NCBI GenBank assembly: GCA_013791905.1
Contig: VMSX01000011.1
Location: 1-64,000 of the forward strand
Origin: Rhodocyclaceae bacterium
Lineage (GTDB): Bacteria > Pseudomonadota > Gammaproteobacteria > Burkholderiales > Rhodocyclaceae
DNA length: 64,000 nucleotides
Direction: 5' to 3'
The number at the start of each line of letters is the position of its first letter. Within the stretch, counting starts at the first letter, position 1. The notes under the pieces were generated by a model. It was given only the letters and a program-made list of their open reading frames with translations. It searched no databases and was not told the origin of the DNA. The translations under genes were made by a program, and so were the position numbers. Positions 1,415 through 61,776 of the stretch are shown piece by piece.

Positions 1415-1773
1415 ATCGCCGCCCTGCAAGCCGCCGACCGCCGCGACATCGCGCCCTTACTCGCCTTCGCCCGTAGCTAAGCACGCCACTGAAACGAACA
1501 AGAGACAAACCCCCTCCCGCGAGCACCGCAAACCACCCACTATTCGATTAGCCTTGCTAGCCCTCGCTGGCGTTGGAGAAACCACTCAAGATATTGGATC
1601 TGCACCCAGGTTTATTGAGTGAGCCACGGGCAACGTAGCGAATTATCGCCGTCCCGCCAGCGCCGACTTTTGCGGCAGCGCTTGGCAGCATGATTATGAA
1701 AAGCTGCTGCCGTGATAATCGGGGTGTTATGATTCCATTTGTCATTGAATTGACTAGGAATTCAGGGAGCAGC
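1415..1773 (+). other. Orphaned Fic C-terminus and intergenic DNA before hsdR
   Basis: Bases 1415-1480 are the displaced C-terminal codons of the Fic gene. Beyond them I see no gene. The stretch holds one copy of the dispersed 24-bp repeat (1648-1671) and a 7-bp inverted repeat GGCAGCA/TGCTGCC (1684-1690 and 1705-1711). A good ribosome site, AGGGAG at 1764-1769, serves hsdR. Confidence 0.6.
1648..1671 (+). repeat. Dispersed 24-bp repeat, copy 1 (intergenic)
   Basis: Full-length copy of a 24-bp sequence that begins GCCGTCCCGCC and ends GCGCCGACTTTT. It lies between the Fic gene and hsdR. The same 24 bases recur at 47424-47447 and 61205-61228, with slightly changed copies elsewhere in the window. 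Confidence 0.9.
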
Positions 1774-5906: not shown

Positions 5907-5914
5907 GTATCGTC

Positions 5915-11393: not shown

Positions 11394-13802
11394 TTATCTG
11401 CGCAAAACTGCGCCGAAGCGTTCGGTTGCCGTGTTTACCAATTGGGCTACCGCCGCGTCGGCGTCGTTGTCAGCCAGAGTCTTCTGAGTATCTTGCATCG
11501 TCACCCGGAACGCAAGGCTTTTGCTTTCCGGCTCAATTCCCTTGCCCTGATAGACGTCAAACAGTCGTATTTCCCGCACATGGGCGGGCGCCGCCGCCTG
11601 CAAAGCGTCTTGCAGCGCCTGTACGGCGCAGTGCTGGGGCACGATCAGGGCGATGTCGCGCACCACGGCGGGGAAGCGCGACGGTTCCCGAAATACCGGG
11701 AACGGGGCTGCCAGCAGCGGTGCCAGTTCGATTTCGAATACCACGGCAGACGCGGCCAGTTCATATTTCTGGTGCCAGCGCGGGTGGATTTCGCCGATGA
11801 CGCCGATGGGCTGGTCATCAAGCAGCACGCGGGCCGCACGCCCGGGATGCAAGGCCGGATGGCTGGTGGGTTCGAAGCGCAGGCGACGTGGCGCCAGGAT
11901 GGCTTCGAGTTCGCCCTTGACGTCGAAGAAGTCGGCGGGTCGGGCTGGCGATCCCCATTGTTCGGGCCATGCCGAGCCGGCCGCCAGGGCGGCAAGGCGC
12001 AGTGGCTGGTGATAGCCGGTACCGTTCTGGCCGCCGCCTGCGGGTGTCAGGTCAGGCAGGAAACAGCGCCCCACTTCAAAGAGCCGCACGCGGTCGGCCT
12101 GGCGCTTGAGGTTGCTGGCCAGCGCACCGACCAGGCCGCCGATCAGGGTGCTGCGCATCACGCCCATCTGGCTGGCGATGGGGTTGGCGAGGCGGACGAG
12201 TTGCGCGGGCTCTGCGCCGGCAAAGTCGGCTTCCCAGTCGGCGTCGACAAAGCTGTAGTTGACGACTTCATGGTAGCCGCGCTCGGCCAGCAGCCGGCGC
12301 ACCTGCATGGCTCCGCGCCGTGCTTCGGGCAGCGGCAGCATTTCCAGCCGCGCGGTGGGCGCCGGCGCGGGAATGTTGTCGTAACCGTGCAGGCGCGCGA
12401 TTTCTTCGATCAGGTCTTCTTCGATGGTGATGTCGAAGCGATAGGCGGGCGGCGTCACGACCAGTTCGTCGGCCGTGCGGGTGTAGGCAAAGCCGAGGCC
12501 GGCGATGAGTTTTTCGGTCTGATCGAAGCCGAGGTCGATGCCGAGCACCTTGGCGGCACGCGCCAGGCGCAGGCGCACCGGGGGGCGCGTCGGCAGATGG
12601 TCGGCAGCGAGCGCTTCGACCACGGGGCCGGGCTGGCCGCCGCAGATGTCGATGATCAGTTGCGTCGCCCGCTCGATGGCGCTGCGCTGCAGTTCGAAAT
12701 CGACGCCGCGCTCATAGCGGTAGGAGGCGTCGGACGAAAAGCCGAGCGCGCGCGCCTTGCCGGCGATGGCGGCGGTATTGAAGAAGGCGCTTTCGAGGAA
12801 CAGGTCGGTCGTTGCATCGCTGATGCCGGAATGCTCGCCACCCATGATGCCGGCCAGCGCCAGGCTTTTGGCGTCATCGGCAATCAGGGCGGTATCGGCC
12901 GTCGGCGTGACGGTCTGCTCGTTGAGCAGCAGCATCTGTTCGCCCGCGGCGGGATAGCGCACATGGATGCTGCCCTGCAACTGGGCATCGTCGAAGGCGT
13001 GCAGCGGCTGGCCGAGTTCGAGCATCACATAGTTGGTGACGTCGACCAGCGCCGAGATGGCACGCACGCCGCAGCGTTCGATGCGTTGCTTGATCCAGTC
13101 GGGTGTGGCGGCGCGGGCATTGACGCCGCGCACGATGCGGCCGCAGTAACGCGGGCAGGCGGCGGGAGCGTCGAGAATGATGCCGCGCGTGTCTTCCAGC
13201 ACGGGCGCGACCGGTGCCACCGTGGGCAACTGCAGGGGTGCGCCAGTCAGCGCCGCCACTTCGCGGGCAATGCCGGAGAGCGACAGGCAGTCGGCGCGGT
13301 TTGGTGTGAGCTTCAGGGTGATGAGGTTGTCATCAAGTTTGAGGTAGCTGCGAATGTCCTGACCGAGGGGCGCATCGGCCGGCAAGGACAGCAGGCCGCC
13401 ATGATCTTCCGACAGCCCCAGTTCGCGCGCCGAACAGAGCATGCCGCAGCTTTCGACGCCACGCACCTGAGCTTTTTTGATCTCGATGCCGGGCAATTTC
13501 GCGCCAACGAGGGCACAGGGCACCAGCATGCCGGCCGCGACATTCGGCGCGCCGCAGACGATTTGCAGCACGCCGTGTGCGCCGCTCATTTCACCCACCT
13601 GGACCGAGCACAGCTTCAGCTTGTCGGCATCGGGATGTTTCTCGGCGCTCAGCACGCGTGCCACGACGACATTGGAAAAGTCGGCGCCGGCGGGACGGCA
13701 CTCCTCGACCTCAAGCCCCGCCATCGTCAGCAAATGGCAGAGTTCTTCGGTCGACAGTGGCGGATTGACGAGGGCGCGCAGCCAGGATTCGGGGAATTGC
13801 AT
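11394..13802 (-). CDS. pheT: Phenylalanine-tRNA ligase beta subunit
   Basis: 802 residues, close to the usual length. It has the N-terminal tRNA-binding OB domain (residues about 40-150), the B3/B4 editing domain, B5, the class II-like core and the C-terminal ferredoxin-fold anticodon-binding domain. With PheS it forms the heterotetramer that charges tRNA-Phe and removes mis-charged Tyr. It follows pheS by nine bases in the operon. A point of interest is RPAGADFS at about residues 37-44. It is encoded by a copy of the dispersed 24-bp repeat, although the protein needs no insertion to align with its family. Confidence 0.97.
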   Translation of the reverse strand: MQFPESWLRALVNPPLSTEELCHLLTMAGLEVEECRPAGADFSNVVVARVLSAEKHPDADKLKLCSVQVGEMSGAHGVLQIVCGAPNVAAGMLVPCALVGAKLPGIEIKKAQVRGVESCGMLCSARELGLSEDHGGLLSLPADAPLGQDIRSYLKLDDNLITLKLTPNRADCLSLSGIAREVAALTGAPLQLPTVAPVAPVLEDTRGIILDAPAACPRYCGRIVRGVNARAATPDWIKQRIERCGVRAISALVDVTNYVMLELGQPLHAFDDAQLQGSIHVRYPAAGEQMLLLNEQTVTPTADTALIADDAKSLALAGIMGGEHSGISDATTDLFLESAFFNTAAIAGKARALGFSSDASYRYERGVDFELQRSAIERATQLIIDICGGQPGPVVEALAADHLPTRPPVRLRLARAAKVLGIDLGFDQTEKLIAGLGFAYTRTADELVVTPPAYRFDITIEEDLIEEIARLHGYDNIPAPAPTARLEMLPLPEARRGAMQVRRLLAERGYHEVVNYSFVDADWEADFAGAEPAQLVRLANPIASQMGVMRSTLIGGLVGALASNLKRQADRVRLFEVGRCFLPDLTPAGGGQNGTGYHQPLRLAALAAGSAWPEQWGSPARPADFFDVKGELEAILAPRRLRFEPTSHPALHPGRAARVLLDDQPIGVIGEIHPRWHQKYELAASAVVFEIELAPLLAAPFPVFREPSRFPAVVRDIALIVPQHCAVQALQDALQAAAPAHVREIRLFDVYQGKGIEPESKSLAFRVTMQDTQKTLADNDADAAVAQLVNTATERFGAVLRR
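13676..13699 (-). repeat. Dispersed 24-bp repeat, copy 2 (inside pheT)
   Basis: Differs from copy 1 by one base (GCCGGCGCC in place of GCCAGCGCC) and equals the copy at 54490-54513. Here it is read in the opposite sense, giving RPAGADFS in the PheT OB domain, a position where homologues have a similar-length segment. Confidence 0.8.
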
Positions 13803-13811: not shown

Positions 13812-14975
<1,164 letters not shown>

Positions 14976-16246: not shown

Positions 16247-18166
16247 TCAGGCCGCTACGCCCTTGCTGCTACGTTCCAGCAGCAGGCGCTCAATCAAGGC
16301 ATCGGGGGACATCTGCCCGAGATCCTGATTGCCTCGGGCACGCACAGCGACCAACCCAGCAGCCTTTTCCTTGTCACCGACAACGACAATATAAGGCCGC
16401 TTCAACAAGCTATGTTCGCGGATTTTATAGTTAATCTTCTCGCCGCGCAAATCGCTTTCGACGCGCAAACCAGCCTTTCGCAACATTTTCGCCACACTTT
16501 CAGCGTAGTCGGTCTGCGCTTCGGAAATATTCATCACGACCACCTGCACCGGCGACAACCACAAAGGCATGGCGCCAGCATGGTTTTCGATCAAAATCCC
16601 GGTGAAACGCTCGAGGGAACCAAACAAAGCGCGGTGCAGCATGACCGGACGCTTGTGGGTGTTGTCGGCCGCCACATAATGGATGTCGAAGCGCTCGGGC
16701 AGGTTCATGTCGACCTGCAGCGTGCCGCACTGCCAGTCGCGGCCGATGGCATCGCGCAGCACGAATTCCAGCTTGGGACCATAGAAGGCGCCTTCGCCAG
16801 GGAAGAGATCGTAGGCGATGCCCATGTGGTCGAGGGCGTTCGATAGCGCGCCTTCCAGCGTGTCCCAGGTTGCATCGGAACCGATGCGCTTTTCCGGACG
16901 CGTAGACAACTTGATGCGCACGCTATCGAAACCGAAGTCCTTGTAGATGTCGAGGATCAGCGCCACCACGCTCTTGCACTCATCCTCCATCTGCTCCTCG
17001 GTACAGAAGATGTGGGCATCGTCCTGGGTGAAATGGCGCACCCGCAACAGGCCGTGCAGCGCGCCCGACGGCTCGTAGCGATGCACCTTGCCGAATTCGG
17101 CCATGCGCAACGGCAGGTCGCGGTAGCTCTTGATGCCCTGTTTGAACAAGGCGACACCGCCCGGGCAATTCATCGGCTTCAGGGCGAAAACGCGTTCATC
17201 CTCGGTCTGCGTCGTGAACATGTGTTCGCGGTAGTTGAACCAGTGGCCGGAAAGCTCCCACAGGGCGCGATCCATGACATCCGGCGTATTTACTTCCACA
17301 TAGCCCGCATCTTCCTGGCGCGCCCGCATGTAGCCAATCAGGTCGAGGAACAAGCGCCAGCCATGAGGATGCCAGAACACGGAACCCGGCGCCTCTTCCT
17401 GGAAATGGAACAGGTCCAGTTGCTGCCCGAGTTTGCGGTGGTCACGCTTTTCCGCTTCTTCGAGCATGTGCAGATAGGCATCGAGCTCGTCTTTCTTCGC
17501 CCAGGCCGTGCCATAAATGCGCTGCAGCTGCTCGTTCTTCGGGTCGCCGCGCCAGTAGGCGCCGGCCACCTTCATCAATTTGAAATGCTTGAGCTTGCCG
17601 GTGGAGGGCACGTGGGGGCCACGGCACAGGTCGACAAAGTCGCCCTCGTGATAGAGCGAAACGTCTTCGCCCGCCGGGATCGCCGCGATCAGCTCGGCCT
17701 TGTAGTGCTCGCCCTGCGACTTGAAGAACTCGACCGCCTTGTCGCGCGGCAGGACTTCGCGGCTGACGGGAAAATCCTTTTTCGCCAGTTCGAGCATGCG
17801 TTTCTCGATCGCCGCCAGATCTTCGGGCGTGAACGGGCGCTTGTAGGCGAAGTCGTAGTAGAAGCCGTTTTCGATCACCGGGCCGATGGTCACCTGTGCT
17901 TCGGGGAACAGTTCCTTGACCGCGTAGGCCAGCAGGTGCGCGGTTGAATGACGAATGATTTCCAGGCCGGCGGGGTCCTTGTCGGTGACGATCGCCAGTT
18001 GCGCATCCTGCTCGATGCGAAACCCGGTATCCACCAGCCGGCCATCGAGCCGTCCGGCCAGCGCCGCCTTTGCCAGGCCAGCGCCAATCGAGGCGGCCAC
18101 GTCGGCAACGGTCAGCGGTTGCGGATATTCGCGTTGGGAACCATCAGGTAGCGTAATCACCGGCAT
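16247..18166 (-). CDS. thrS: Threonine-tRNA ligase
   Basis: 639 residues from ATG 18166 ([15 protein letters not shown]). The order is the TGS domain (1-62), the editing domain with [10 protein letters not shown], the class II core (motif 2 near [20 protein letters not shown]) and the C-terminal anticodon-binding domain. It charges tRNA-Thr and hydrolyses Ser-tRNA-Thr. It heads the thrS-infC-rpmI-rplT-pheST-ihfA run. A GGAG ribosome site (18176-18179) sits directly against a strong hairpin with a T run, so read-through or attenuation probably sets its expression. Confidence 0.97.
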
Positions 18167-18179
18167 CTTCAAGGACTCC

Positions 18180-18219
18180 AAAAGGAACAGGGCGCCGGAT
18201 CACTCAGGCGCCCTGTTCC
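18180..18219 (-). terminator. Strong intrinsic terminator/attenuator touching the thrS ribosome site
   Basis: A perfect 13-bp stem on the minus strand (GGAACAGGGCGCC at 18207-18219 in complement, with its mate at 18184-18196) has a 10-base loop and is followed at once by TTTT, then the GGAG of thrS. It is placed to end the tRNA-Asp transcript. The thrS ATG lies only 14 bases beyond the T run. Confidence 0.85.
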
Positions 18220-18445: not shown

Positions 18446-19192
18446 CTACATCTCTGCCGGCAACCACAGATCCGGTCGATCAGTAAACACCGCTGCCGCT
18501 CCGAGTCCATACAGGCGCGCCCCGCTGGCAGGATCATTGACGGTGTAAGCCGCCCACGGAACGCCAGCGTCATTGAGTGCAGCCGCCTGCTGCGGTGTGA
18601 GGTGTTTCGCTGCCAGGTGCAGCGCAACGGCACCCAGGCGTTCAAGCTGCGCTTGCCAATCGCCAGGCAAATGTTCAACCAGCAGCGCCTGCGGGAATTG
18701 CGGCAGGACGCGCCGTGCCGCCAGCGCCGACTTTTCGGAAAAGCTGGAGATCACGCCCGTGCCGTTCCAATTCTCGCCCAACCAACGCGCCACCGTCTCT
18801 CCCGTGATTTCATCGTGCCCCGCAGCCGGCTTGATCTCGATGTTGGGCCACAAGCCGAGGCGGCGGCACGCCGCCATCGCCTCGGCGAAAGTCGGCACTG
18901 GAGTGATGAAATGCTCCGCATGGGGTGCGGCGAACGCGACGTGATGAGGGCCGCCGGCATCGAAGCGGCGAATCTCGGCCAGCGTCCTGTCCGCGACGCG
19001 ACCTGCGCCGGTGGTGGTGCGCTCCAGCGTTTCGTCGTGGATCAGGATCGGCACGCCATCGGCGGTGAGCATGACGTCAAACTCAACCGCCCGGCAACCC
19101 AGGCGGGCGGCTACCGCAAGTCCGGCCAGGGAGTTTTCCGGGGCCAGGGCACCGCCGCAGCGGTGGGCAATGATGCGCGGATAGGCGATCAA
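18446..19192 (-). CDS. ugpQ: Glycerophosphodiester phosphodiesterase
   Basis: 248 residues of the GDPD TIM barrel. IAHRCGGALAPENSLAG carries the conserved His-Arg and Glu-Asn. VEFDVMLTADGVPILIHDETLERTT supplies the metal ligands and second His. NIEIKP follows on a later strand. It hydrolyses glycerophosphodiesters to glycerol-3-phosphate and an alcohol. There is no signal peptide, so it is cytoplasmic. It overlaps the preceding solute-binding protein gene by ATGA, which supports joint use of glycerophosphodiesters. The segment SEKSALAARR is encoded by a copy of the dispersed repeat. Confidence 0.92.
   Translation of the reverse strand: MIAYPRIIAHRCGGALAPENSLAGLAVAARLGCRAVEFDVMLTADGVPILIHDETLERTTTGAGRVADRTLAEIRRFDAGGPHHVAFAAPHAEHFITPVPTFAEAMAACRRLGLWPNIEIKPAAGHDEITGETVARWLGENWNGTGVISSFSEKSALAARRVLPQFPQALLVEHLPGDWQAQLERLGAVALHLAAKHLTPQQAAALNDAGVPWAAYTVNDPASGARLYGLGAAAVFTDRPDLWLPAEM
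18712..18735 (+). repeat. Dispersed 24-bp repeat, copy 3 (inside ugpQ)
   Basis: One mismatch to copy 1 (GCCGTGCC for GCCGTCCC). Read on the gene strand it encodes KSALAARR, within a helix that is present at similar length in homologues. Confidence 0.8.
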
Positions 19193-21209: not shown

Positions 21210-21355
21210 AGCCGTAGAATCCCTCCCCGCGCCCCGCCGGTTGGGCGCAGTCTTTCGGCATCGACACACCCCCGATAGTCATTAGTTGCCCCGCCTGAGC
21301 CGGCCTCGCCCTTTCTAGAGGGCTTATGGGCGCGCAACAAGAACCGGAGCTCATT

Positions 21356-22825
21356 GTGAAATTCACCGATCTCGGGCTAGCGCCCGAACTTCTCCAAGCC
21401 GTGCATGATGCCGGCTATACCGACCCGACGCCGATCCAGGAACAGGCCATTCCGATCATCCTCGCCGGCCACGATGTCATGGGCGGCGCCCAGACCGGCA
21501 CCGGCAAGACCGCCGGATTTGTCCTGCCACTGCTGCACAAGCTGGCGCGCCATGCCAGCAGTTCACCCTCGCCCGCCCGCCACCCGGTACGCGCACTGAT
21601 CCTCACGCCGACGCGCGAGCTGGCCATGCAGGTGCATGAATCGGCCAAAACCTATGGCAAACATCTCGCGCTGCGCTCGGTCTGCATCTACGGCGGCGTG
21701 GACATGCGGGCGCAGATCGCCGAGCTGAAAGAGGGCCGCGAGATCGTCGTCGCCACGCCGGGACGACTGCTCGACCACGTCGAGCAAAAAACCGTCAGCT
21801 TCAACTCGGTCGAATTCCTCGTCCTCGACGAAGCCGACCGCATGCTCGACATGGGCTTCATCCCCGACATCAAGCGCATCCTCGCGCTGCTGCCGAAGAC
21901 GCGGCAAAGCCTGCTGTTCTCGGCAACCTTCTCGGACGAAATCAAGCGGCTCGCCGACGTGATGCTGAAGGCCCCGCAACTCATCGAGGTCGCCCGGCGC
22001 AACATGGTCTCCGAGACCATCACGCACCGCGTGTATCCGGTCGCCACCGACCGCAAGCGTTACCTGCTGAAACAACTGCTGGAAGTATCACCCACCGCCC
22101 AGGCGCTGGTCTTTGTCGGCACCAAGTTCGGCACCAGCCGGCTGGCGCTCTGGCTGGAACGCATGGGCATCAACGCCACGGCCATCCACGGCGACAAGAC
22201 CCAGCAGGAACGCACCAAGGCGCTCGAAGCCTTCAAGTCCGGCGAATCGCGCGTGCTGGTCGCCACCGATGTCGCCGCACGCGGACTCGACATTGACGAC
22301 CTGCCGCTGGTCATCAATTACGAACTGCCGCGCGTCGCCGAAGACTATATCCATCGCATCGGCCGCACCGGCCGCGCCGGCAAGACCGGCGAGGCCGTTT
22401 CGCTCGTCGCCCCCGAGGAAAAACCCCGCCTGACCGAAATCGAAAGGCTCACCAAGTTCAAGATCGAGCAGGTCGTCGTGCCCGGCTTCGAGCCAGGCTC
22501 GGTCGCGCCGCCGCATGAGCATGAACGCAGCGAACGCGGCCATGGTCACAAGCGCGAAGCGCGGGTGGGCCACGGCCCGAAAACCTCGCTAGACCGACTG
22601 CCGGCGCCCGCCAGTCATTTGCCCTCGGTGCCCGTGGCACCCAGGACAACCCGGGCGCCCAAGGCGCAGATGATCGCCGCCGATGGTTTCGACTTTTCAA
22701 AGCCCTACGACTCGCGGGAAACAACAGGAAGCAGCGCAGACAAACTCGCCGAAAAGTCGGCGCTGGCGCCACGGCGCCCACTGCGTCCGGTCGCCGCCCT
22801 GCTCGGCGGACTGGGCAAGAAGTAG
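21356..22825 (+). CDS. rhlE: DEAD-box RNA helicase RhlE
   Basis: About 489 residues. The motifs are in order: Q motif (TDPTPIQEQAIP), AQTGTGKT, PTRELA, DEAD (LVLDEADRMLDMG), SAT, then helicase C with ARGLDI and HRIGRTGRAGK. It unwinds short RNA duplexes in ribosome assembly and RNA turnover. I chose GTG 21356 (MKFTDLGLAPELL) since GGAG precedes it and it matches the family start; ATG 21326 is possible. The C-terminal tail from about 370 is low-complexity and His/Arg-rich. It contains KSALAPRR from a dispersed-repeat copy. Confidence 0.93.
   Translation: MKFTDLGLAPELLQAVHDAGYTDPTPIQEQAIPIILAGHDVMGGAQTGTGKTAGFVLPLLHKLARHASSSPSPARHPVRALILTPTRELAMQVHESAKTYGKHLALRSVCIYGGVDMRAQIAELKEGREIVVATPGRLLDHVEQKTVSFNSVEFLVLDEADRMLDMGFIPDIKRILALLPKTRQSLLFSATFSDEIKRLADVMLKAPQLIEVARRNMVSETITHRVYPVATDRKRYLLKQLLEVSPTAQALVFVGTKFGTSRLALWLERMGINATAIHGDKTQQERTKALEAFKSGESRVLVATDVAARGLDIDDLPLVINYELPRVAEDYIHRIGRTGRAGKTGEAVSLVAPEEKPRLTEIERLTKFKIEQVVVPGFEPGSVAPPHEHERSERGHGHKREARVGHGPKTSLDRLPAPASHLPSVPVAPRTTRAPKAQMIAADGFDFSKPYDSRETTGSSADKLAEKSALAPRRPLRPVAALLGGLGKK
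22752..22775 (-). repeat. Dispersed 24-bp repeat, copy 4 (tail of rhlE)
   Basis: AAAAGTCGGCGCTGGCG is identical to the complement of copy 1, followed by CCACGGC. It encodes KSALAPRR in the disordered C-terminal tail of RhlE. Confidence 0.7.
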
Positions 22826-32803: not shown

Positions 32804-33247
32804 ATGAACCGCAATGATGTCACCGAAATGATCGTCGCCGCCAAGATTCAGAAAGGTATCAAGTGGGCGGATGTCGCCAAGAAGGTCGGCCTGTCCAAGG
32901 AGTGGGTGACGGCCGGCTGCCTCGGCCAGATGACCTTCGACAAGAAGCAGGCGGCAACGATCGGCAAAATCTTCGCCTTGCCAGCCGAGGCCGTCGCCCT
33001 GCTGCAGGTCGTTCCCTACCGTGGCGCGCTGCCGACGGCCGTGCCGACCGACCCGACGGTCTACCGCTTCTACGAACTGATCAGCGTCTATGGCACGACC
33101 TTCAAGGAACTGATCCACGAAGAATTCGGCGACGGCATCATGTCCGCCATCGACTTCAAGATGGACATGAAGCGCGAACCCAATGCTGCGGGCGATCGCG
33201 TGAATATCGTGATGTCGGGCAAGTTCCTGCCTTACAAGACCTATTGA
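32804..33247 (+). CDS. cynS: Cyanate hydratase (cyanase)
   Basis: 147 residues. Catalytic residues correspond to Arg88, Glu91 and Ser114 (YRFYELISVYG and GIMSAIDF), equivalent to Arg96, Glu99 and Ser122 of the E. coli enzyme. It converts cyanate and bicarbonate to carbamate and CO2, releasing ammonia. N-terminal helices form the decamer contacts. AAGGAG precedes the ATG. As the last gene of the transporter operon it gives the cluster its function: cyanate detoxification and nitrogen supply. Confidence 0.97.
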   Translation: MNRNDVTEMIVAAKIQKGIKWADVAKKVGLSKEWVTAGCLGQMTFDKKQAATIGKIFALPAEAVALLQVVPYRGALPTAVPTDPTVYRFYELISVYGTTFKELIHEEFGDGIMSAIDFKMDMKREPNAAGDRVNIVMSGKFLPYKTY

Positions 33248-33270: not shown

Positions 33271-33302
33271 AAGTCGGCGCCGTCCCGCCAGCGCCGACTT
33301 TC
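33271..33302 (+). repeat. Dispersed repeat copy 5, extended to a hairpin after cynS
   Basis: The 24-bp motif at 33279-33302 (last base C not T) is preceded by AAGTCGGCGC at 33271-33280. This makes a perfect 10-bp inverted repeat with GCGCCGACTT (33291-33300) and a 10-base loop. It lies 24 bases after the cynS stop, so it may act as the operon's 3' hairpin. Only a short TTT follows. Confidence 0.75.
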
Positions 33303-33443
33303 ACTAAATTCGGCAATACCCATTTTCAGCCAGAGGCAGTGAATCAACGGCGCTGCAGATAATTGATTGGGGGTTACCCATCACTATCCCACTGGGCTAA
33401 AGTACACCTACCGAAACAAAACGCTGCGGATCGGGGGAGGGTA

Positions 33444-36422
33444 ATGGCCAATTCATGGAAGGCTTGTTTGGCGTGGCGCCCTGCGCTGCTGGGCCTGCTG
33501 CTGGCACTTGTTTCGCCACTGGCGGCGGTGGCAGAAGGTCCCCAGGCAGCCCGCACGGGTGCAGCACAGACAGCGTTTACCCACCTGCCATCGCTGACCA
33601 AGGCTGAACGGGACTGGTTACGCGATCATCCCGTGATCCGTGTGGCCCAGGATCCAGGCTGGCCGCCAGTCGAATTTACCGACAGCGACAGGGAACCCTT
33701 CGGCATGTCCGAAGACTATCTGAAACTCATCGAACAGCGGCTGGGTATCACGTTCGAGCGCGTGCGCAACCTCAGTTGGCAAGAGGCCTATGCCCGCCTG
33801 CAGCGCTGGGAGATCGACGTGACGACCTCCGTGGCCGTGACACCCGAGCGCCAGGAATTCTGGGCCTTCACCCAGCCGTACCTGAAAGTTCCCGTCGTCA
33901 TCGTCACGAACCCGGATGTCGCCTATCTTGCCGATATGGGGGCGCTTGCCGGAAAAAGAGTTGCCGTGGTGGCAGGCTACGCGGTGAACGAATGGATACC
34001 GCGGGACTTCCCCGAGATTTCACTGGTCCGGGTCAAAACAGTGCAGGAAGGCCTTGAGGCCCTGCAACGGAAGGAAGTTTACGCGTTTGTCGACAGCATG
34101 CTCGTCGTCGACTATTACCAGGCGAAATTGCAGGCGACGGTGAAGATTGCCGGACAGACCCCGTATGTCAACGCCCAGTCGATGGCGGTGCGCAAGGACT
34201 GGGCGATCTTCGCCGGGATACTCGACAAAGCCCTGGATTCGATTACCGCAACGGAACGCAACGACATTTTCAAGAAATGGTTGCCAGTCCGTTATGAACC
34301 CGCGTTCAACTATGTCCAGTTTGGGCAATCGCTGGCCGTCTTCGCCTTCGTCCTCCTCGGGCTGGCGTTATGGATGCGCAAGCTGTCCCGGGAAATCCGC
34401 CAGCGAAAACTTGCTGAAGCGGTAGCAGAGCAGAGTGCCAAACGATTTCGCCAACTCTTCAATGTTGCGGCGGTGCCGCTGTGCCTCGTCAACAAAGACG
34501 GCGTCCTGGTGGATTTCAACGACCGCTTCGAGCAACTGTTCGGCTACACCCATGCGGAGGTGCCGACCCTGGCCGAGTGGTGGCAACTTGCCTATCCCGA
34601 CCCGGACTATCGGCGCTGGGTCCTCGCTACCTGGGACGCCGCCGTGCTCCGTGCCCAGCAGAACAATGTCGACATCGCGCCCATCGAATACCAGGTGAGC
34701 TGCAAGAACGGCATGGTGCGCACGGTGCTGATCACCGGCACCATCATGGGCGACGACTTCCTCGCCGCCTTCTTCGACGTCACAGAACGCAAGCAGGCTG
34801 AAATTCGGCTAGCCGCAAGCGAAGCACGGTTCCGGTGCTCATTCAGGCTCATCCCGATCGCCTTGACGCTCCAAACGAAAGATGGCGATCTACTCGACTG
34901 CAGTGACGCCTTTTGCGAAACAACGGGATTTTCCAGGGACGAGGTGCTGGGCACCGACACACTGAAACTGGACTTGTGGGAAAACCCCGAACAACGTGCC
35001 GCCATGCGGGAAATCCTGCTGCGTGATGGACGCGTAGACAATTTCGAATTCAAGCTGCGGCGCCGTAACGGCCAGATCAGGACCATGCAGATGTCAGCGC
35101 GATATCTGACACAGGAACCCGAGCCCATCCTGCTGTCAGTCGCCCATGACATTACCGAGCAAAAGCAGGCCGAGTTCGAAATCAAGCGGCTCAACGCCGA
35201 ACTCGAAGATCGCGTCCTCGCCCGTACCGCCGAGCTCGAAACCGCGAACCGCTTGCTCACCCAGGCGAAGTTCCAGGCCGAAGCGGCCAACCGCGCCAAG
35301 AGCACCTTCCTCGCCAACATGAGCCACGAGATCCGCACGCCGTTGAACGGCATCCTCGGCATGGCCCACCTGCTGCGCCGCAGCGAGGTTAGCCCACAAC
35401 AGGCCAATAAACTCGACAAGATCGCCGCCTCCGGACAGCACCTGCTCGGCGTCATCAACGACATCCTCGATCTCGCCAAGATCGAGGCCGGCAAGCTCGT
35501 CCTCGATCAGCGCGACTTCGTGCTGCCCGACCTGATCAGGTCCGTCGTCGCCGTCATCGGCGACAGCATCAAAGCCAAGGGACTCTCCCTGCATATCGAC
35601 ATTGCCGGCATGCCGCAGGCCCTGCATGGCGATGTCAACCGTCTCGGCCAGGCCCTGCTCAACTACCTCGGCAACGCCGTCAAATTCACCGCACACGGCA
35701 GCATCACCCTCAAGGGGCGTCTGGTCGAAGACCGGGATGGGGAATACCGCGTCCGCTTCGAGGTCAGCGACACCGGCATCGGCATGACGGCCGAACAGTG
35801 CGTGCGCCTGTTCGAGGTATTTGAACAGGCCGATGGCACGACCACGCGAAAATATGGCGGCACCGGACTGGGGCTTGCCATCACCCGCCGGATCGCCCGA
35901 CTGATGGGCGGCGAGGTCGGCGTCACCAGCACGCTGGGGCAGGGCAGCACCTTCTGGCTCACCGCGCGCCTGGGACGCAGCCAGACCGAGGTCGCCGCCG
36001 TGACGCCAGCGCCGACTTCCGGCGCCGCCGAAGCGGCGCTCAGGCGCGACCATGCCGGCGCACGCGTCCTGCTCGTCGAGGACGATCCGATCAACCAGGA
36101 GGTGTCCCTGCTGTTGCTGCACGATGTCGGTCTGGCCCCCGACCTGGCCGAGAACGGTCGCGCAGCCGTGCGTCTGGCGGAGCAGAACGACTACGCCCTG
36201 ATCCTGATGGACGTGCAGATGCCGGAGATGGACGGTCTGGCGGCAACGCGGGCGATCCGCGCCCTGCCGGGACGGGCAGCCACGCCCATCCTGGCGATGA
36301 CGGCCAACGCTTTCGACGAGGACCGCCGTGACTGCGCAGCGGCGGGCATGAACGACTTCGTCGCCAAGCCGGTGGAACCGGACAGGCTGTTCGAGACGCT
36401 GTTGCGATGGTTGACGCGATGA
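33444..36422 (+). CDS. Hybrid sensor histidine kinase with periplasmic binding domain
   Basis: 992 residues from ATG 33444 (GGGGGAGG before it). Order: signal peptide (to about 32); a family 3 solute-binding domain (about 50-275, [15 protein letters not shown]); a membrane helix (about 300-320); two PAS domains (to about 570); coiled coil; HisKA with phospho-acceptor His in [12 protein letters not shown] (about 629); HATPase ([20 protein letters not shown]); a short linker; and a receiver with [11 protein letters not shown] (Asp near 923). It probably senses a small molecule in the periplasm and starts a phosphorelay. No output protein lies beside it. The linker before the receiver holds a diverged dispersed-repeat copy. 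A link to cyanate is only positional. Confidence 0.92.
35997..36020 (+). repeat. Dispersed 24-bp repeat, copy 6 (diverged, kinase linker)
   Basis: 20 of 24 positions match copy 1 (GA for CC at positions 6-7, CC for TT at the end). It encodes VTPAPTSG in the linker between the ATPase and receiver domains, a place that tolerates added residues. Confidence 0.5.
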
Positions 36423-42133: not shown

Positions 42134-42134
42134 T

Positions 42135-43202
42135 TCAGAGTTCAGCGTACATGCGGCCGGGATTGAATATCCCGTGTGGATCGAAGATCTGCTTGAGACG
42201 GCGCTGCAGATTCAGCAAGGGCAGTGGCAGTGGAGCAAACGCGCCGACGGTCGCCTTGAGCGTGGAATCGGCACGAAACAGCGTCGCGCTGCCGCCGACG
42301 CTTGCCGCAGCGGCGCGAATCGTTGCGGGGGCGGCATCGCTGTGCAACCAGCGCTCTGCCCCGCCCCATTCCATCAGGGTTTCTCCGGGCAAGGCGATAA
42401 CCGGGGCGACAGAAGGCACCGACAGGCGCCAGAGGGGCATGCCGGCGAAGAAGCTCGCATGCTGGTCGCGCAAGCCATCCCAGAATGCCGCCGTCGCGCC
42501 ATCCTCGACTTTTTCGCCACCCAGCATTTGCACTGCCGCGGCAATCGCCGCGCGCGCGCCGGCGAGGCGCACACTCAGCATGCCGTCCTGCCAGGCACTG
42601 GCGACAATGGGCAGCGGCTGGGCTGCCCACTGATTGAGCTTGTCCAGCGCCACAGCCTGGGGCATGGCAAAGCTCAGTGTGGCTTCGGCAACGGGGCGCG
42701 GCAGCACCTTGATGGATATTTCGAGCAACAGCCCCAGCGTGCCAAGACTGCCGGCCATGACCCGCGAGACATCGTAGCCGGCCACGTTCTTCATCACCTG
42801 GCCGCCGAAGCTCAGCTCACGCGCCGCGCCATCGAGAATCTTCACGCCCAGCACGAAGTCACGCACCGCGCCCGCGCTGACCCGGCGCGGCCCCGACAGT
42901 CCAGCCGCCACGGCACCGCCAATGGTGCAGTTTTCAGCGAAGCGCGGTGGCTCGAAGGCCAGACATTGGCCGTGTTCCGCCAGCACCGCCTCGATCTCGG
43001 CAAGCGGTGTGCCGCAGCGCGCCGTAATGACGAGCTCGGTCGGCTCGTAGGCCAACACGCCGGTATGCGCGCGGGTTTCCAGCAGTTCGCCGCGCAATTC
43101 GCAGCCGTAGAAGTCCTTGCTGCCGCCGCCACGGATGCACAGCGGCGCGGCGCTGCTTGCCGCCAGGATGCGTTCGCGGAGCTGCTCGGTCAAATCGGTC
43201 AT
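42135..43202 (-). CDS. glcE: Glycolate oxidase FAD-binding subunit
   Basis: 355 residues from ATG 43202 (MTDLTEQLRER), which overlaps the glcD stop by ATGA. FAD_binding_4 domain: APLCIRGGGSKDFYG, then NCTIGGAVAAGLSGPRR. It is shorter than GlcD and pairs with it in the glycolate dehydrogenase complex. The ORF can be read upstream to 43343, but that part lies inside glcD and lacks family similarity. Confidence 0.94.
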   Translation of the reverse strand: MTDLTEQLRERILAASSAAPLCIRGGGSKDFYGCELRGELLETRAHTGVLAYEPTELVITARCGTPLAEIEAVLAEHGQCLAFEPPRFAENCTIGGAVAAGLSGPRRVSAGAVRDFVLGVKILDGAARELSFGGQVMKNVAGYDVSRVMAGSLGTLGLLLEISIKVLPRPVAEATLSFAMPQAVALDKLNQWAAQPLPIVASAWQDGMLSVRLAGARAAIAAAVQMLGGEKVEDGATAAFWDGLRDQHASFFAGMPLWRLSVPSVAPVIALPGETLMEWGGAERWLHSDAAPATIRAAAASVGGSATLFRADSTLKATVGAFAPLPLPLLNLQRRLKQIFDPHGIFNPGRMYAEL

Positions 43203-47418: not shown

Positions 47419-49941
47419 TTATCGCCGTCCCGCCAGCGCCGACTTTTCCTCCGCGCCCCAGACGCGAGCCAGCGTCGCCTGGATTTTCTGCTCGAAGCGG
47501 GCGATCAGTTCGCGGTTGGCGGCGACCAGCGCCTGCTCGGCTTCGATCTCGGCGACGATGGCTTGCTGGGTGGCGAGGGGTGGGAGGGGAAGCTTGAAGT
47601 TCAGAACATCCGTCTTGGTGATATTTGGGTCTTTCCGCGTGCTGTTTGCGACCTTCTTCCAATAGTCCTTCGACGCTATAAGAATGGCGTTCAGAAAATA
47701 GGGGCTCACTTTCGGCGTTGGTAGAAGTGCGGTCATCGCTTGGTTGTGAGTTGCCTCGATCTCAAGAACACCAGTTCTTCCGATCTGATTGAAACCTCCA
47801 TACATCGCGATCAGCACGGTCCCCACAGGCAGGATGCTGAGGTGAGTTTCGCCCAATGCCTGCGGAGTAATTTTCTCGTCAGTCAATCTGATTGGCCCGT
47901 CTCTGAGGTCGAGTGTTTTTACCCATGGGATTGTCCCGCCCTTGAAATAGTCCGTGCGACTGCGAGATGGTGTTGTCCCCGATTTCGTCTCAAAGAGATC
48001 TGCAAGTGGCACCACCGGCCAGTCGGGGTGGATGGGGATGTGGGGGCGGTAGTGGTCGAGGACGGCGCGGGCGCCGTTGATGACTTTCTGGTAGCCCTCG
48101 ATCTCCGCCACGATTCCCTTCTGCACCTCCAGCGGCGGCAGGGGAATCTGGAACTGGCTGAAGAATCCAGTGTGAAAGCTTTGAACGGTGACACCGGGCT
48201 TGATGCCCTTTTCAAGAATCTCGGTGCGTCTTGCTTTCAGGATCCAAAACAGGAAACGCACTTCGAGTCTGCCGTCCGTCGGTATGAGCGCGATGATGTC
48301 TTGGTTGAAGCACATCTCCCGGGCGGTAATGGCAAGCGGCAAGGAGTGCTTCAGAATCCCCGACCGCACAACACACAACAACGTATCGGCGGGAATGATG
48401 CTCGTAGCACTACCTTCGACCGCAGCCTTTGAAACGTGATCCTCGGTATCGTGAAGCACGTCCTGCTTCATGTCTTTCGGTGACACCCACGGAATGGTAC
48501 CGCGCCAAAACGCGTCGTTCTCTTTCGACGGCGTTCCGCCACTGGCTCGGCGTGTCAATTCTCCAAGAGGAATCAATGGCCACGCCGCCGTAGCGGACGT
48601 CACTCCCTCCCGATACCGCTCCCCACTGAGGTTGTAGTCGCCATTCGCGGCGATCTTTGCCTTCGCCACGATCAGCCCGCAGGTTGGCAGAAGTTCATCA
48701 ACGGCTTGGCCGCTGCGCAGTGCCTGAACGTAGGTGGCAAGTTCGGCCTTGACCTGTGGCAGATCGTTCTTGTCGAAGGCGCGGCGCTGGGCGCCGAGGC
48801 CGTAGCCGTCGTTTTCGACCTTGAAGAAGGCGATGCTGTCGCTCTTCCTGGCGATGGATTTGTCGAGGATGAGGATGGAGGTCTTGACGCCGGAATAGGG
48901 ATTGAAGCAGCCCGCCGGCAGCGAGACGACGGCGACCAGGCTGTTGGCGACAAGCATTTTGCGCAGGGCTTTGTAGGCGGTCTGGCTCTGGAAGATGATG
49001 CCTTCGGGCACGATGATGGCGGCGCGGCCTTGCGGGCTGAGGTGCTCGGCCATGTAGTCCACGAAGAGCACTTCGCTGCGCTTGGCCTGGATCGAGAAGC
49101 GCTTGTGGGGCTTGATGCCGCCTTTCGGCGACATGAAGGGCGGGTTGGCGAGAATGACGTCGGCCGTCTCGTTCCACTTCTCGTCGCTGGTCAGGGTGTC
49201 GTATTCGACGATGTGCGGGTCGGTGAAGCCGTGCAGGTACAGGTTGACCAGGCTGAGGCGCACCATGTCGGGCGAGATGTCGTAGCCGCGGATGTTGGTG
49301 GCGAGGCGCTTGCGCTCGTCGGGCTTGAGCGCGTGCTTGCCGCTGTTGTGTTTGAGGATGTGCTTCCAGGCCGAAATCAGGAAGCCGGCGGTGCCGCAGG
49401 CGGGGTCGAGAATGCTTTCGTGCTTTTGCGGGTCGATGACCGCGACCATGAAGTCGATGATGTGGCGCGGGGTGCGAAACTGGCCGGCGTCGCCCTGGCT
49501 GCCAAGCACCGAGAGCAGGTATTCGAAGGCGTCGCCGAGGCGTTCGGAGTGGTCGTAGGTGAAGCCGTCGATTTCCTTGAGGAAGCCGCGCAGGGTTTCC
49601 GGGTCGCGGTAGGGCAGGTAGGCGTTCTTGAAGATGTCGCGGAACAGTGGCGGGATGCCGGGGTTCGCGGTCATCTTGCCGATGGCTTCGGAATACAGCG
49701 TCAGCACGTCAAAGCCGCCCAGTTTGGGGGCCATCAACCTGGCCCAGCCGTACTTGGCGTAGCCATTGGCGAAGAAGCTGCGTTTGCCGCCGAGTTCTTC
49801 GGCTTCGGCGTCCATGTCGTCCATGAACTTGTAGATCAGCGCGATGGTGATCTGCTCGACCTGCGATTTTGGGTCGGGCACCTTGCCGACGAGGATGTCG
49901 CGACAGGTGTCGATGCGGCGCTTGGTGTCGGTGTCGAGCAT
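47419..49941 (-). CDS. Fused type I methyltransferase-specificity protein (HsdM-HsdS)
   Basis: 840 residues. Residues 1-450 are HsdM: S-adenosylmethionine motif DPACGTAGF (179-187) and NPPF (266-269). Residues about 460-840 are HsdS with two target-recognition domains (WPLIPLGELTRRASGGTPSK and WPVVPLADLFETKSGTTPSR), each ending in a helix (PLPPLEVQKGIVAEIE; PLPPLATQQAIVAEIE). One chain therefore carries modification and site recognition, normally two proteins. The usual M2S assembly must be reached differently. The C-terminal KSALAGRR and the stop region are supplied by a dispersed-repeat copy. HsdR of this system is upstream past the MNT/HEPN genes. Confidence 0.9.
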   Translation of the reverse strand: MLDTDTKRRIDTCRDILVGKVPDPKSQVEQITIALIYKFMDDMDAEAEELGGKRSFFANGYAKYGWARLMAPKLGGFDVLTLYSEAIGKMTANPGIPPLFRDIFKNAYLPYRDPETLRGFLKEIDGFTYDHSERLGDAFEYLLSVLGSQGDAGQFRTPRHIIDFMVAVIDPQKHESILDPACGTAGFLISAWKHILKHNSGKHALKPDERKRLATNIRGYDISPDMVRLSLVNLYLHGFTDPHIVEYDTLTSDEKWNETADVILANPPFMSPKGGIKPHKRFSIQAKRSEVLFVDYMAEHLSPQGRAAIIVPEGIIFQSQTAYKALRKMLVANSLVAVVSLPAGCFNPYSGVKTSILILDKSIARKSDSIAFFKVENDGYGLGAQRRAFDKNDLPQVKAELATYVQALRSGQAVDELLPTCGLIVAKAKIAANGDYNLSGERYREGVTSATAAWPLIPLGELTRRASGGTPSKENDAFWRGTIPWVSPKDMKQDVLHDTEDHVSKAAVEGSATSIIPADTLLCVVRSGILKHSLPLAITAREMCFNQDIIALIPTDGRLEVRFLFWILKARRTEILEKGIKPGVTVQSFHTGFFSQFQIPLPPLEVQKGIVAEIEGYQKVINGARAVLDHYRPHIPIHPDWPVVPLADLFETKSGTTPSRSRTDYFKGGTIPWVKTLDLRDGPIRLTDEKITPQALGETHLSILPVGTVLIAMYGGFNQIGRTGVLEIEATHNQAMTALLPTPKVSPYFLNAILIASKDYWKKVANSTRKDPNITKTDVLNFKLPLPPLATQQAIVAEIEAEQALVAANRELIARFEQKIQATLARVWGAEEKSALAGRR
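47424..47447 (+). repeat. Dispersed 24-bp repeat, copy 7 (3' end of hsdMS)
   Basis: Identical to copy 1 over 24 bases, and both are flanked by AT(C) on the left. On the gene strand it encodes the last residues KSALAGRR before the TAA of the fused methylase. Confidence 0.9.
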
Positions 49942-54344: not shown

Positions 54345-55397
54345 CTATAGCTTGATTGTTGTCAGGTCGTGACTCAAGTTTTCCAGCGCGTCCTGTGTGT
54401 CAACAGCATCCTTCCGGTAGCGGTCAAGAAAGTTGCTGGCGACGGCACGCCAGTGTTCCGCGCCTCGCTGCACGATTTCAGATAAAACCGCCGTCCCGCC
54501 GGCGCCGACTTTTGCCGTATCGAACGCAGCCAGCAAAGGAAACATCTCCTTGCGCATGCCGTCGAAATTGGTGAACCAGAAATGCAGTTGCGGCCAGGCG
54601 GCACGTTCGATCAGGGCCGGCAAGGTCACCAGGCAATCGGCAAGATTGTCGCGCACGGCACGAGCAAGAATTTCCGGGCGTCGTTTCTTGAAGCCGGCCA
54701 GCATCCTTTCCCAGTCGGGGCCGAGCAGGCCGCTCGCCGCATGCTCGCCGCGTTCATGCAGGATCAGGCTTGCGGTTTCGGCATCGGTCATGCGCTGGAG
54801 CGCCGCCTGGGGGTCATCGGCATAGCCGTGCGCGGCGAGTGCCCGCGCCAGGGTGCCGGGTGTTTGCTTCATGCTCCAGCCTTCGGCCTTTTCCCACAAC
54901 CACTGCCGCAAAGCTTCGCGCCGCACAATCACGACACCATTTTGCAGGGCGGCCGGGATGGCGGTCAGGTCGCGCGCATATTCGCGTTCGCAGACCAGCA
55001 CCGTCAGCCCATCCGTTTCCTCTCGATACGCCAGTTGCCCGAGGAAGAAATGCGGCTTGCCGAACCGCCCGATACCGGCGCCATAAACGAGGCCATGGGG
55101 CGCGAGCCGCTGGTTGATTGCAACACTGGCAAACGGATCGAATTCTTCACCGGCGACGGGCAGCGGATCATAGCTGTCTTCAGCCAGGGTTTCCCAGAGG
55201 GCTTCGCGCGCGGAAAGCCAGGCGCCGACATCGCCACGCGCCAGGGTCTCGCCCAGCGCAATGCCCTGCTCCCAGCGGTAGAACTCGCGCATTTCGAGCA
55301 GGTAGGTGCATAGCGACATCTCGCGCGCATGACGCGCATCGGCGATGTAGCAGTTGCGCTGGACGGCGCCAATCAACCGATGAAGCTCTTTCGTCAT
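54345..55397 (-). CDS. Conserved protein of unknown function (resembles Sfum_1244 family)
   Basis: 350 residues. N-terminal features are QRNCYIADARHAREMSLCTY, LLEMREFYRWEQG and LWETL, which recall the family named Sfum_1244 in bacterial annotations; I hold this as likely, not certain. No enzyme motif or membrane segment is clear. KVGAGGTA (near residue 300) is encoded by a dispersed-repeat copy and lies between helical segments. The stop of the next upstream gene overlaps its start by four bases. Confidence 0.6.
   Translation of the reverse strand: MTKELHRLIGAVQRNCYIADARHAREMSLCTYLLEMREFYRWEQGIALGETLARGDVGAWLSAREALWETLAEDSYDPLPVAGEEFDPFASVAINQRLAPHGLVYGAGIGRFGKPHFFLGQLAYREETDGLTVLVCEREYARDLTAIPAALQNGVVIVRREALRQWLWEKAEGWSMKQTPGTLARALAAHGYADDPQAALQRMTDAETASLILHERGEHAASGLLGPDWERMLAGFKKRRPEILARAVRDNLADCLVTLPALIERAAWPQLHFWFTNFDGMRKEMFPLLAAFDTAKVGAGGTAVLSEIVQRGAEHWRAVASNFLDRYRKDAVDTQDALENLSHDLTTIKL
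54490..54513 (+). repeat. Dispersed 24-bp repeat, copy 8 (in the Sfum_1244-like gene)
   Basis: Identical to the pheT copy and one base different from copy 1. It is read on the gene strand as KVGAGGTA. Confidence 0.85.
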
Positions 55398-56869: not shown

Positions 56870-56877
56870 GTCAGCCT

Positions 56878-56934: not shown

Positions 56935-56935
56935 A

Positions 56936-58599: not shown

Positions 58600-58629
58600 T
58601 TGCCGTAGCCGATTTTTCTCTGCAGATGA

Positions 58630-58658: not shown

Positions 58659-58664
58659 CGCCGC

Positions 58665-58770
58665 CGTCATTGGGGAGTAGCCGCCCTCCATCCAGAGGGG
58701 CTTGCGTCAACACACTTGGCCATCCGGCCATGGTGCAAGCGGTTTCCCAAACTTGGCAAGACCTTTGACC
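58665..58770 (+). promoter_or_regulatory. yybP-ykoY manganese riboswitch
   Basis: The conserved elements are in order: GGGGAGTAGC (58672-58682 region), CGTCAACACACTTGGC (about 58705-58720) and ACTTGGCAAGACCTTTGACC (58751-58770). These are the signature blocks of the yybP-ykoY class, which binds Mn2+ and turns on exporters. The gene downstream is a TMEM165/GDT1-type exporter, the commonest partner. The segment up to 58837 would be the expression platform. Confidence 0.92.
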
Positions 58771-58837
58771 ATTGCGCCTTCAGACTGGCTGGAGAGGCGC
58801 CGTGGTCATTCGTCTTCTCCGGCCAAGGGGTGTCACA

Positions 58838-60373: not shown

Positions 60374-60395
60374 AAGCTTGGAAATATAGCGTTTG

Positions 60396-60530
60396 CGCCG
60401 GGCCGCCCCAAGCAAATGCGGCACGCGGCGCCAGCCGCAACCCGCTCCGCTGCCAATAGAAGCGCCCCGTAACAAACGAGCAAAGCGAGCGGTTAAGAAC
60501 CCCCCGAGAGGGGGGCGAAGGGGGGCGGGC
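60396..60530. repeat. GC-rich intergenic repeat, copy D (diverged) with hairpin
   Basis: Begins with GCGCCGGGCCGCCCCAAG, like the ends of copies B and C, but the middle differs. It ends in CCCCCC-GAGA-GGGGGG (60500-60515), a perfect stem. It lies between the convergent CDF and VWA genes and may end both transcripts. Confidence 0.55.
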
Positions 60531-60531
60531 C

Positions 60532-61776
60532 TTAATTCAGTTGTATGCGCCGGCCCCACGGCACCGGCGCTTTGCCCTTCACCAGCCACAGCACCGGATA
60601 ATTCGGCGGCTGGGCGGGAAACTCGCCTTCCGCATCGGTGAAGTAAACCAGCGAGTCCGGCTGCTGGCCACTGCGCTCGATCCACTCGAACACCGGGGTA
60701 AATGCGGTCCCGCCACCACCGGCAAACTGGCGCGGCAGGCGCAGTTCGTCCCAGGGTTCGAACACCCAGGGCGCATCGGCCGCCAAAGCGGTGTCGCAGG
60801 CAAACAGCGTGATGCGCACCGGCATCGTTCCCTTGAGCGCGTTCATCTCGCCGAGAAAACTGGCCAGATCCGCCTCGCTCACCGAACCCGAAACATCGAT
60901 GGCGACATGAATGTCACCGGAGTGGCTGCGCAGGCTCGGCCAGATCACCTCGCCTTCGCGGCGCGAGGGGCGCAGCCAGGTGTAGTCATCGCGCCCTACC
61001 TGGGTCAGGTATTGCGCCAGCAGCGCCCGCCACGACACCTGCGCGGCCAGCCCCGCCTCGCTGAGACGCGCCAGACTTCCGGAAAGCTTGCCTGCCTCGC
61101 GGGCGCGTTGCGCGGCGGCGGCCAGATGACGTTGCCATTGCTGCTGCAATTGTTCCTTTTCTTTCGCGGTCAGCGGCGGTGGCGGGCCGTTTTCCTCGTC
61201 ACCCGCCGTCCCGCCAGCGCCGACTTTTTCCGGCGAGTTGCCGCCCGCATCGGGATCGATCTCCTGCGGATCGCTGCCACCCTTACCCTGCGCTTCCGAC
61301 TGCTCGCCCTGCCCGCCCCCTTCGCCACCTTCATCGCTGTCCCAGACGTGGTCGTCGAGCATTTCGCTGTCTAGATTGTCATCGATGCAGGGGTAGATTT
61401 CTTCCGCAGCCATGCCGCGATACAAGTCGAGCACCTGCGCATCGAGGGGCGGCATGAGGCCTTCGTCCATGAGCAGCGGGTTGATGGCGAAATCGCAGGC
61501 CAGATCCCATTTGCGCTGCACGCGATGACCGCGGCGCGCGAAATGGCCCAGTGCGCAATGCAGTGCCTCGTGGGCCAGCGCGAACTGCACCTCAGCTGAA
61601 GTCAGGTTCTCGATCCAGCTTGGGTTGTAGTAGATGGCGCGGGCATCGGTCGCCGTGGTGCGGCACCAGGCGCCAGCGGGTTTCAGGGGCAGGCGCAACA
61701 CCAGCGCGCCGAGAAAGGGCTTGTCGAGAATCAGCCGAGTTCTGGCCGCGGCAAGCCTGGACTCGGCATCACTCAT
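60532..61776 (-). CDS. DUF2201/VWA-like metallopeptidase-type protein
   Basis: 414 residues. N-terminal putative metallopeptidase domain with LAHEALHCALGH (HExxH, about 69-80). An acidic, Gly-rich low-complexity centre (about 145-205) follows, then a C-terminal VWA-like domain with DVSGSVSEAD (MIDAS, near 292). Such proteins pair with MoxR ATPases and are thought to help assemble or insert metals into complexes. The gene starts inside the end of the MoxR gene (eight-base overlap). KVGAGGTA in the centre comes from a dispersed-repeat copy. Confidence 0.88.
   Translation of the reverse strand: MSDAESRLAAARTRLILDKPFLGALVLRLPLKPAGAWCRTTATDARAIYYNPSWIENLTSAEVQFALAHEALHCALGHFARRGHRVQRKWDLACDFAINPLLMDEGLMPPLDAQVLDLYRGMAAEEIYPCIDDNLDSEMLDDHVWDSDEGGEGGGQGEQSEAQGKGGSDPQEIDPDAGGNSPEKVGAGGTAGDEENGPPPPLTAKEKEQLQQQWQRHLAAAAQRAREAGKLSGSLARLSEAGLAAQVSWRALLAQYLTQVGRDDYTWLRPSRREGEVIWPSLRSHSGDIHVAIDVSGSVSEADLASFLGEMNALKGTMPVRITLFACDTALAADAPWVFEPWDELRLPRQFAGGGGTAFTPVFEWIERSGQQPDSLVYFTDAEGEFPAQPPNYPVLWLVKGKAPVPWGRRIQLN
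61205..61228 (+). repeat. Dispersed 24-bp repeat, copy 9 (in the VWA gene)
   Basis: Identical to copy 1. Read on the gene strand it encodes KVGAGGTA within the flexible linker of the VWA protein. Confidence 0.9.

Follow-up and report, generated by a model that had tools for sequence, protein, structure and literature searches.

A 25-base word, CGCCGTCYCGCCAGCGCCGACTTTT, recurs hundreds of times in the genome of a Rhodocyclaceae bacterium (G000, 3.64 Mb) and in its relatives, and it is probably a DNA uptake sequence, spread by biased uptake and recombination. The initial annotation of the window (the whole stretch of 64,000 nucleotides analysed here, from contig VMSX01000011.1) had named such a sequence among several candidates, and this idea is supported by genomic hallmarks: abundance, dialects, an in-place origin in pheT and occurrence in one clade. 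Also observed were a sharply bounded 25-bp unit, copies on both strands and in several frames, ComEC and a gene for a ComP-family pilin.

The copies in the window and the genes around them are as follows, with mismatches counted against the 25-mer.

1647..1671, plus strand: motif copy, 0 mismatches, intergenic, 18 bases before an HsdR-like type I restriction gene (1690-4554)
13676..13700, minus strand: motif copy, 2 mismatches, in pheT (11394-13802, minus) on the gene's strand, encoding CRPAGADF
14635..14659, plus strand: weak copy, 4 mismatches, within pheS (13812-14906, minus)
18048..18072, plus strand: doubtful copy, 4 mismatches, within thrS (16247-18181, minus), where motif-free relatives have fairly similar codons
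18711..18735, plus strand: motif copy, 1 mismatch, within a glycerophosphodiester phosphodiesterase gene (18446-19192, minus)
22752..22776, minus strand: motif copy, 2 mismatches, within a DEAD-box helicase gene (21326-22825, plus), near its 3′ end
33278..33302, plus strand: motif copy, 1 mismatch, intergenic, with a cyanate lyase gene (32804-33247) on one side and a sensor kinase gene (33363-36422) on the other
35996..36020, plus strand: weak copy, 4 mismatches, within the hybrid sensor kinase gene (33363-36422, plus)
42489..42513, plus strand: doubtful copy, 4 mismatches, within an FAD-binding-domain gene (42135-43343, minus)
47423..47447, plus strand: motif copy, 0 mismatches, at the end of a type I methylase/specificity fusion gene (47419-49941, minus), whose last codons it forms
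54489..54513, plus strand: motif copy, 1 mismatch, within a DUF6866 gene (54345-55397, minus)
61204..61228, plus strand: motif copy, 0 mismatches, within a DUF2201 (VWA-like) gene (60532-61776, minus)

All nine places at which the initial annotation had recorded a 24-base sequence carry this 24-mer, with 0, 1, 1, 2, 1, 4, 0, 1 and 0 mismatches in order from 1648 to 61205; its three identical copies were confirmed, as was the variant base shared by those at 13676 and 54490. The 24-base word is present as described, and the conserved unit proved to be one base longer at the 5′ end, giving 25. In addition, we found that the copies at 13676 and 22752 lie on the minus strand and that weaker matches to the 24-mer occur at 14636 (4 mismatches), 18049 (3) and 42490 (4), of which the last two are doubtful. 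The copy at 33278..33302 is accompanied on its 5′ side by an inverted arm, AAGTCGGCGC, with which it could form a hairpin. When the 15-base core of the word was searched in the window at ≤3 mismatches, 18 matches were obtained against 2.87 expected, and none of 100 shuffles reached 18; this result and the absence of the reversed word genome-wide uphold the earlier view that the recurrence is not due to chance.

In the window, an exact motif copy stands ahead of one type I restriction gene (1690-4554) and another closes a second such gene (47419-49941). A different dispersed repeat of about 145 bp, intergenic and present in dozens of copies in G008, G009 and G015, lies at 60376-60542.

The 25-mer was compiled from 91 copies in 464 kb of G000 (the window plus 20 further stretches; 13% of the genome). 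Its edges are sharp: conservation begins and ends within one base, and the flanks of the 91 copies carry near-zero signal. The sample contained 91 copies of the 24-mer at ≤5 mismatches, 1 at six and background beyond, and the reversed 24-mer, used as control, gave no match below 6 mismatches; the 25-base word gave 7, 22, 30, 14, 10, 8, 1, 3 and 41 matches at 0 to 8 mismatches, respectively. The motif copies are a discrete class, separate from background. The word consists of a block CGCCGT, a looser stretch (with Y at position 8) and the core CCAGCGCCGACTTT, and nearly every base of it is specified (39.5 bits for the copies at ≤5 mismatches). A second over-represented word, TTGGGGCGGCCC/GGGCCGCCCCAA, was found in the same 464 kb in 27 copies against 0.07 expected.

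The whole genome of G000 contains 478 copies of the 24-base form at ≤3 mismatches, evenly split between the plus (239) and the minus strand (239), and 498 matches of the 15-mer at ≤1 mismatch; the reversed control gave 0 in both searches. Since the reversed word never occurs in G000, the 25-mer is not a product of base composition. Within the GTDB genus of G000, 18 of 19 genomes hold 181-706 copies (reversed control 0). The genome-wide signal that the initial annotation had suggested from the density in the window is thus real, with many copies elsewhere in the genome and in relatives, above what base composition gives.

Copies are mostly single and occur on both strands, within and between genes. 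Gene prediction with a simple codon-based finder puts 67 of the 92 copies in the G000 sample (one of the 92 at 6 mismatches) in genes, compared with 85.8% of random places (binomial P 0.0014), and leaves 25 intergenic. Uptake sequences are described as fewer in genes than by chance in the available part of PMC7811141, and we therefore count this under-representation in favour of an uptake role. Of the coding copies, 29 are in the orientation of the gene and 38 against it, and four of the six frames hold more than 2 copies each. Copies in several frames and both orientations are a DNA-level signal. Their spacing is more even than random in a 264 kb stretch (CV 0.74 vs 0.97, P 0.026), with P 0.079 in a second stretch of 120 kb. 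Locally, 31 of 43 copies in G000:C4:1-264000 are on the plus strand (binomial P 0.005; the genome total is even), and G002 shows runs of like-oriented copies.

Across a sample of 297 Rhodocyclaceae genomes, 37 contained more than 100 copies, and the other 260 contained ≤28. These carriers comprise 11 of 12 genomes in g1, 11 of 12 in g2, 1 of 1 in g9, 1 of 1 in g62, 4 of 4 in g70 and 9 of 9 in g88. A maximum-likelihood tree of PheT (53 rows) places all 26 of the carriers that it includes in a single branch of 32 rows (support 98/96); the six other rows of this branch are G086, which has a dialect of the word, L010 and L013 (4 and 5 copies respectively, 22.7 kb each), and the reduced genomes G277 (17 copies), G064 (24) and G006 (0). 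Judging from this tree, which is of one gene, has open forks and does not place g88 together, one origin of the word with later losses would be the simplest reading. The losses in G277 and G064 count against an uptake role, as does G006, a genome of the same genus as G000 that has 0 copies despite ComEC and a ComP_DUS pilin.

Two further occurrences were recorded. In the motif-poor genome G168 (two contigs), 7 of 8 copies lie within 334 kb (C1:1672223-2005931), as if this region had been imported from a carrier. Among IMG/VR viral contigs (L312-L355), 44 stretches carry the exact 20-base core; L312, L338, L346 and L351 have 5-7 copies each, and in L316 four copies recur every 316 bp, with one more besides.

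De novo 12-mer counts, in which the motif was not used, had a piece of it as their leading word in G000, G017, G011, G026, G019 and G141. The form of the word differs between lineages. In G086, GCGTCGACTTTT is the top over-represented 12-mer (the contigs of this genome were chosen for listed motif matches, which biases its density); G026 favours GCACCGAC (12 of 18 copies); G016, of the same genus as G000, reads CGCCGCCC...GAGTTT (15 copies); G019 is loose after CGCCGT, often with GACTCTT; and in G017, G002, G011 and G001 the word mostly starts with T. No dominant 12-mer was found in 80-180 kb each of the motif-poor G006, G028, G036, G168 and G064, and 47 kb of G277 gave only a CAGAGGCGCAGA-type repeat; the sequences of G105 (18 kb, with no word listed) and G141 (40 kb) are too short for a verdict from 12-mers. 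These lineage dialects follow phylogeny, each variant being represented mostly by one genome and 12-20 copies. The available text of PMC3630211 gives dialects as a trait of the Neisseria DUS.

How the copies arose is best seen in pheT. Motif-free relatives mostly read GLEVEE-xxPVAPxF-xxVVVA there, and carriers of the site read GLEVEE-CRPASADF-SNVVVA or near. A first alignment was built from 54 loci (8 of 80 from genome contigs), with G010, G012 and G014 left out and G064 not covering the site; over 20 codons its 53 rows are all ungapped, 22 of them with the motif at ≤4 mismatches, 2 at 6 mismatches and 29 motif-free. In a wider set of 129 loci, in which several genomes appear twice, 125 are ungapped over the 20 codons, and the four gapped loci are G010 three times and G064. 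The insertion in G010 (L086, L100 and L004) consists of 4 residues inside the motif site and occurs in this genome only. Given the ungapped alignment, the word overwrote ancestral codons of an essential gene without a change in length, and it is not an inserted element there. The evolution seen at pheT is by point mutation rather than insertion, and uptake sequences are described in PMC1939737 and PMC7811141, as far as available, as evolving in this way. G190, G026, G079, G105 and G187 carry the word elsewhere and lack it in pheT, and thus sites turn over.

Outside pheT, an alignment with a motif-poor relative was possible for 20 of 66 coding sites, the other 46 having no usable relative (in another relative comparison, 74 of 92 copies had none), and 20 of 34 alignments were ungapped. 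At 16 of these 20 sites there is no motif-size gap; at 4, a gap of at least 8 residues, in one case exactly 8, lies over or beside the motif, which counts against an uptake role. Between G017 and G002, 49 sites in 280 kb gave 18 ungapped, 9 gapped, 9 partial and 13 unaligned cases, and of the 18 ungapped sites 8 are kept, 9 stand at 6-7 mismatches and 1 is absent. In a set of 298 comparisons, of which 210 come from pheT, 264 were ungapped, with the motif retained at ≤5 mismatches in 243, at 6-7 in 15 and at ≥8 in 6. In only 9 of 14 orthologous groups was the motif more conserved than its flanks (identity 0.835 vs 0.782, P 0.15; 0.803 vs 0.804 at 415 random control places), and at ungapped sites the motif exceeded its flanks at 13 of 18 for G017 vs G002 (P 0.06) and at 7 of 10 in the reverse comparison (P 0.56). 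Extra conservation of the motif above its flanks is suggested and is not significant in these samples.

For the machinery of uptake, ComEC was found in 34 of 37 genomes examined, including 18 of 19 of the genus, and is not specific to carriers. A ComP_DUS-family pilin (PF16732) is likewise present in carriers and non-carriers alike (25 of 26 genomes tested); in G000 its gene stands beside a GspH/FimT-like gene, and G086, which has a dialect, gave no match to PF16732. Given that motif-free genomes also have ComEC and the ComP_DUS pilin and that G086 has no match to this pilin, no receptor is tied to the tag. Co-occurrence as a route to the receptor was tried and rejected: neither GspH, which is in all 10 genomes, nor the ComP_DUS pilins distinguish carriers from other genomes. 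Of 21 loci, 8 yielded pilin frames, and PDB sequence searches with two pilins returned type IV pilins in general.

We infer a bias at uptake, a minor pilin that binds the tag, and drive that maintains it. The tag would be bound by the DNA-uptake machinery of the type IV pilus, so that tagged DNA would be preferred in natural transformation, and incoming tagged DNA would replace homologous chromosomal DNA. Chance near-matches would then be pulled stepwise towards the tag and retained (molecular drive), and within genes this drive would act as far as the protein tolerates.

The main rival to an uptake tag is a binding site for a protein of the chromosome, be it one of nucleoid organisation, segregation or recombination or a global regulator; selection would keep this site in its hundreds of positions, and it would play no part in uptake. 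The in-place evolution, the conservation of particular positions and the rather even spacing would equally fit such a site, and no receptor ties the motif to uptake. We nevertheless regard it as unlikely, because copies lie inside genes in either orientation, pheT occurs with or without the site among related carriers, and the lineage dialects are typical of uptake tags; known genome-wide protein sites are moreover generally shorter or far fewer than this 25-mer. The lack of a visible replication polarity also speaks against it. On the closed chromosome of G017, the plus-strand matches listed (100 of 152) are evenly spread over the first 1.68 Mb, and the remaining 52 of 152 must fall in the last 1.06 Mb; this even spread of the listed matches argues against replichore polarity and shows no switch in strand bias. 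Two stretches of opposite GC skew in G000 both lean to the plus strand, that is, there is no consistent relation to skew. A replication-polar motif of the KOPS or Chi type, with an orientation switch at origin and terminus, finds no support in the G017 plus-strand list or the GC skew of G000. The initial annotation had spoken of a nucleoid or replication motif; the replication half of this proposal is not supported, and a nucleoid-protein site stays as a rival.

A tiny mobile repeat of the REP/REPIN kind, spread by a RAYT (Y1) transposase with later decay of the copies, is much less probable still. Mismatch counts per copy follow a Poisson law (mean 2.24), as expected of decaying copies, which counts against an uptake role; the deviations are nevertheless concentrated at few positions (0 of 91 copies at three, 38 of 91 and 39 of 91 at two; chi2 329, 24 d.f.), unlike the even decay of dead copies, and this unevenness we count for an uptake role. 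The gaps of at least 8 residues at 4 of 20 coding sites would fit such a repeat, set against 16 of 20 without a motif-size gap and the replacement in pheT without change of length. G000 has one Y1_Tnp gene, whereas 13 of 18 motif-rich congeners gave no Y1_Tnp (RAYT) match. An inverted core lies within 60 bp of 12 of 49 copies in G017 and 7 of 22 in G002, but of only 3 of 91 in G000, where predicted genes contain 67 of the 92 copies sampled. Of the examples printed for G017 and G002, 11 of 12 belong to a 54-bp, BIME-like unit, motif plus inverted half, which is in tandem at L304 10698-10876 (G002); both genomes are without a Y1_Tnp match, and we read these units as a probable later capture of the motif in the G017/G002 sublineage. 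A mobile repeat is largely refuted as the origin of the coding copies. As a general explanation REP/RAYT, and with it the small mobile repeat offered by the initial annotation, is out by the missing RAYT genes, the rarity of inverted partners in G000, the genic placement and pheT; it holds as a local fact, the 54-bp units of G017 and G002. Finally, a recurring peptide motif (K-V-G-A-G-G/E-T-A) under protein-level selection has next to no chance of being the explanation: the commonest frame does encode KVGAG[G/E]TA in 25 of 67 coding copies, but 42 of 67 are in other frames or on the other strand (e.g. RRPASADF) and 25 of 92 copies are outside predicted genes, a spread by which a peptide-level signal was ruled out.

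An uptake tag being the preferred reading, we would tentatively go one step further and propose a third, separately arisen kind of uptake sequence: a long, two-block 25-bp word with species-level dialects, a receptor that is not ComP or is a retuned ComP relative, and a tag captured into a BIME-like unit in G017 and G002. PMC7811141, in its available part, names Pasteurellaceae and Neisseriaceae as the two families in which species show a strong preference for DNA that carries short motifs. In open-licence PMC text, preprints not included, we found no paper with both "DNA uptake sequence" and Rhodocyclaceae and none of five motif strings; "DNA uptake sequence" together with Burkholderiales yielded only Neisseria work, related matches were by title on Neisseria or Haemophilus, and none of the titles listed by broader queries concerned this motif. 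If the proposal is true, the word would be a third system of self-recognition tags and an independent replicate for the question of whether such tags reflect selected recognition or are a by-product of biased uptake. Natural transformation would be expected in members of the clade, with DNA exchange following dialect boundaries, and the tag would serve as a watermark for tracing gene flow, for example in the G168 cluster.

Compared with known systems, the word resembles REP/REPIN (BIME) sequences, which are palindromic, extragenic and RAYT-linked, in being short, dispersed and present in hundreds of copies, and in the 54-bp units with inverted half of G017 and G002; it differs from them in that the G000 copies are mostly genic and without inverted partner and that 13 of 18 motif-rich congeners gave no RAYT match. 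The Neisseria DUS is denser than the 25-mer in G000 (about 2 copies per 10 kb). GCCGTC is common to both words, and neither the DUS 10-mer nor a known dialect occurs in the 25-mer; in an alignment on GCCGTC, the CTG of Neisseria has no counterpart (CTG occurs on the other strand), and the partial likeness may be chance. Nor does the 25-mer consensus contain the core letters of the USS. The word is longer than the Neisseriaceae DUS (25 bp against 10-12) and has different letters; common to both are copies that now and then form an inverted pair (G000:C4:437439-/437482+), a minor pilin gene of the ComP_DUS family (in 25 of 26 genomes tested here) and, going by the available text of PMC3630211, copy numbers in the hundreds, placement on either strand within genes and between them, and dialects following phylogeny. 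The Pasteurellaceae belong to a different bacterial class, and here, unlike in their USS, nearly every base is specified. As far as the available parts of PMC7811141 and PMC1939737 go, the USS and the 25-mer are alike in being asymmetric, in combining a strong core with a weaker section, in having lineage variants, in arising by point mutation rather than insertion, and in being rarer in coding sequence.
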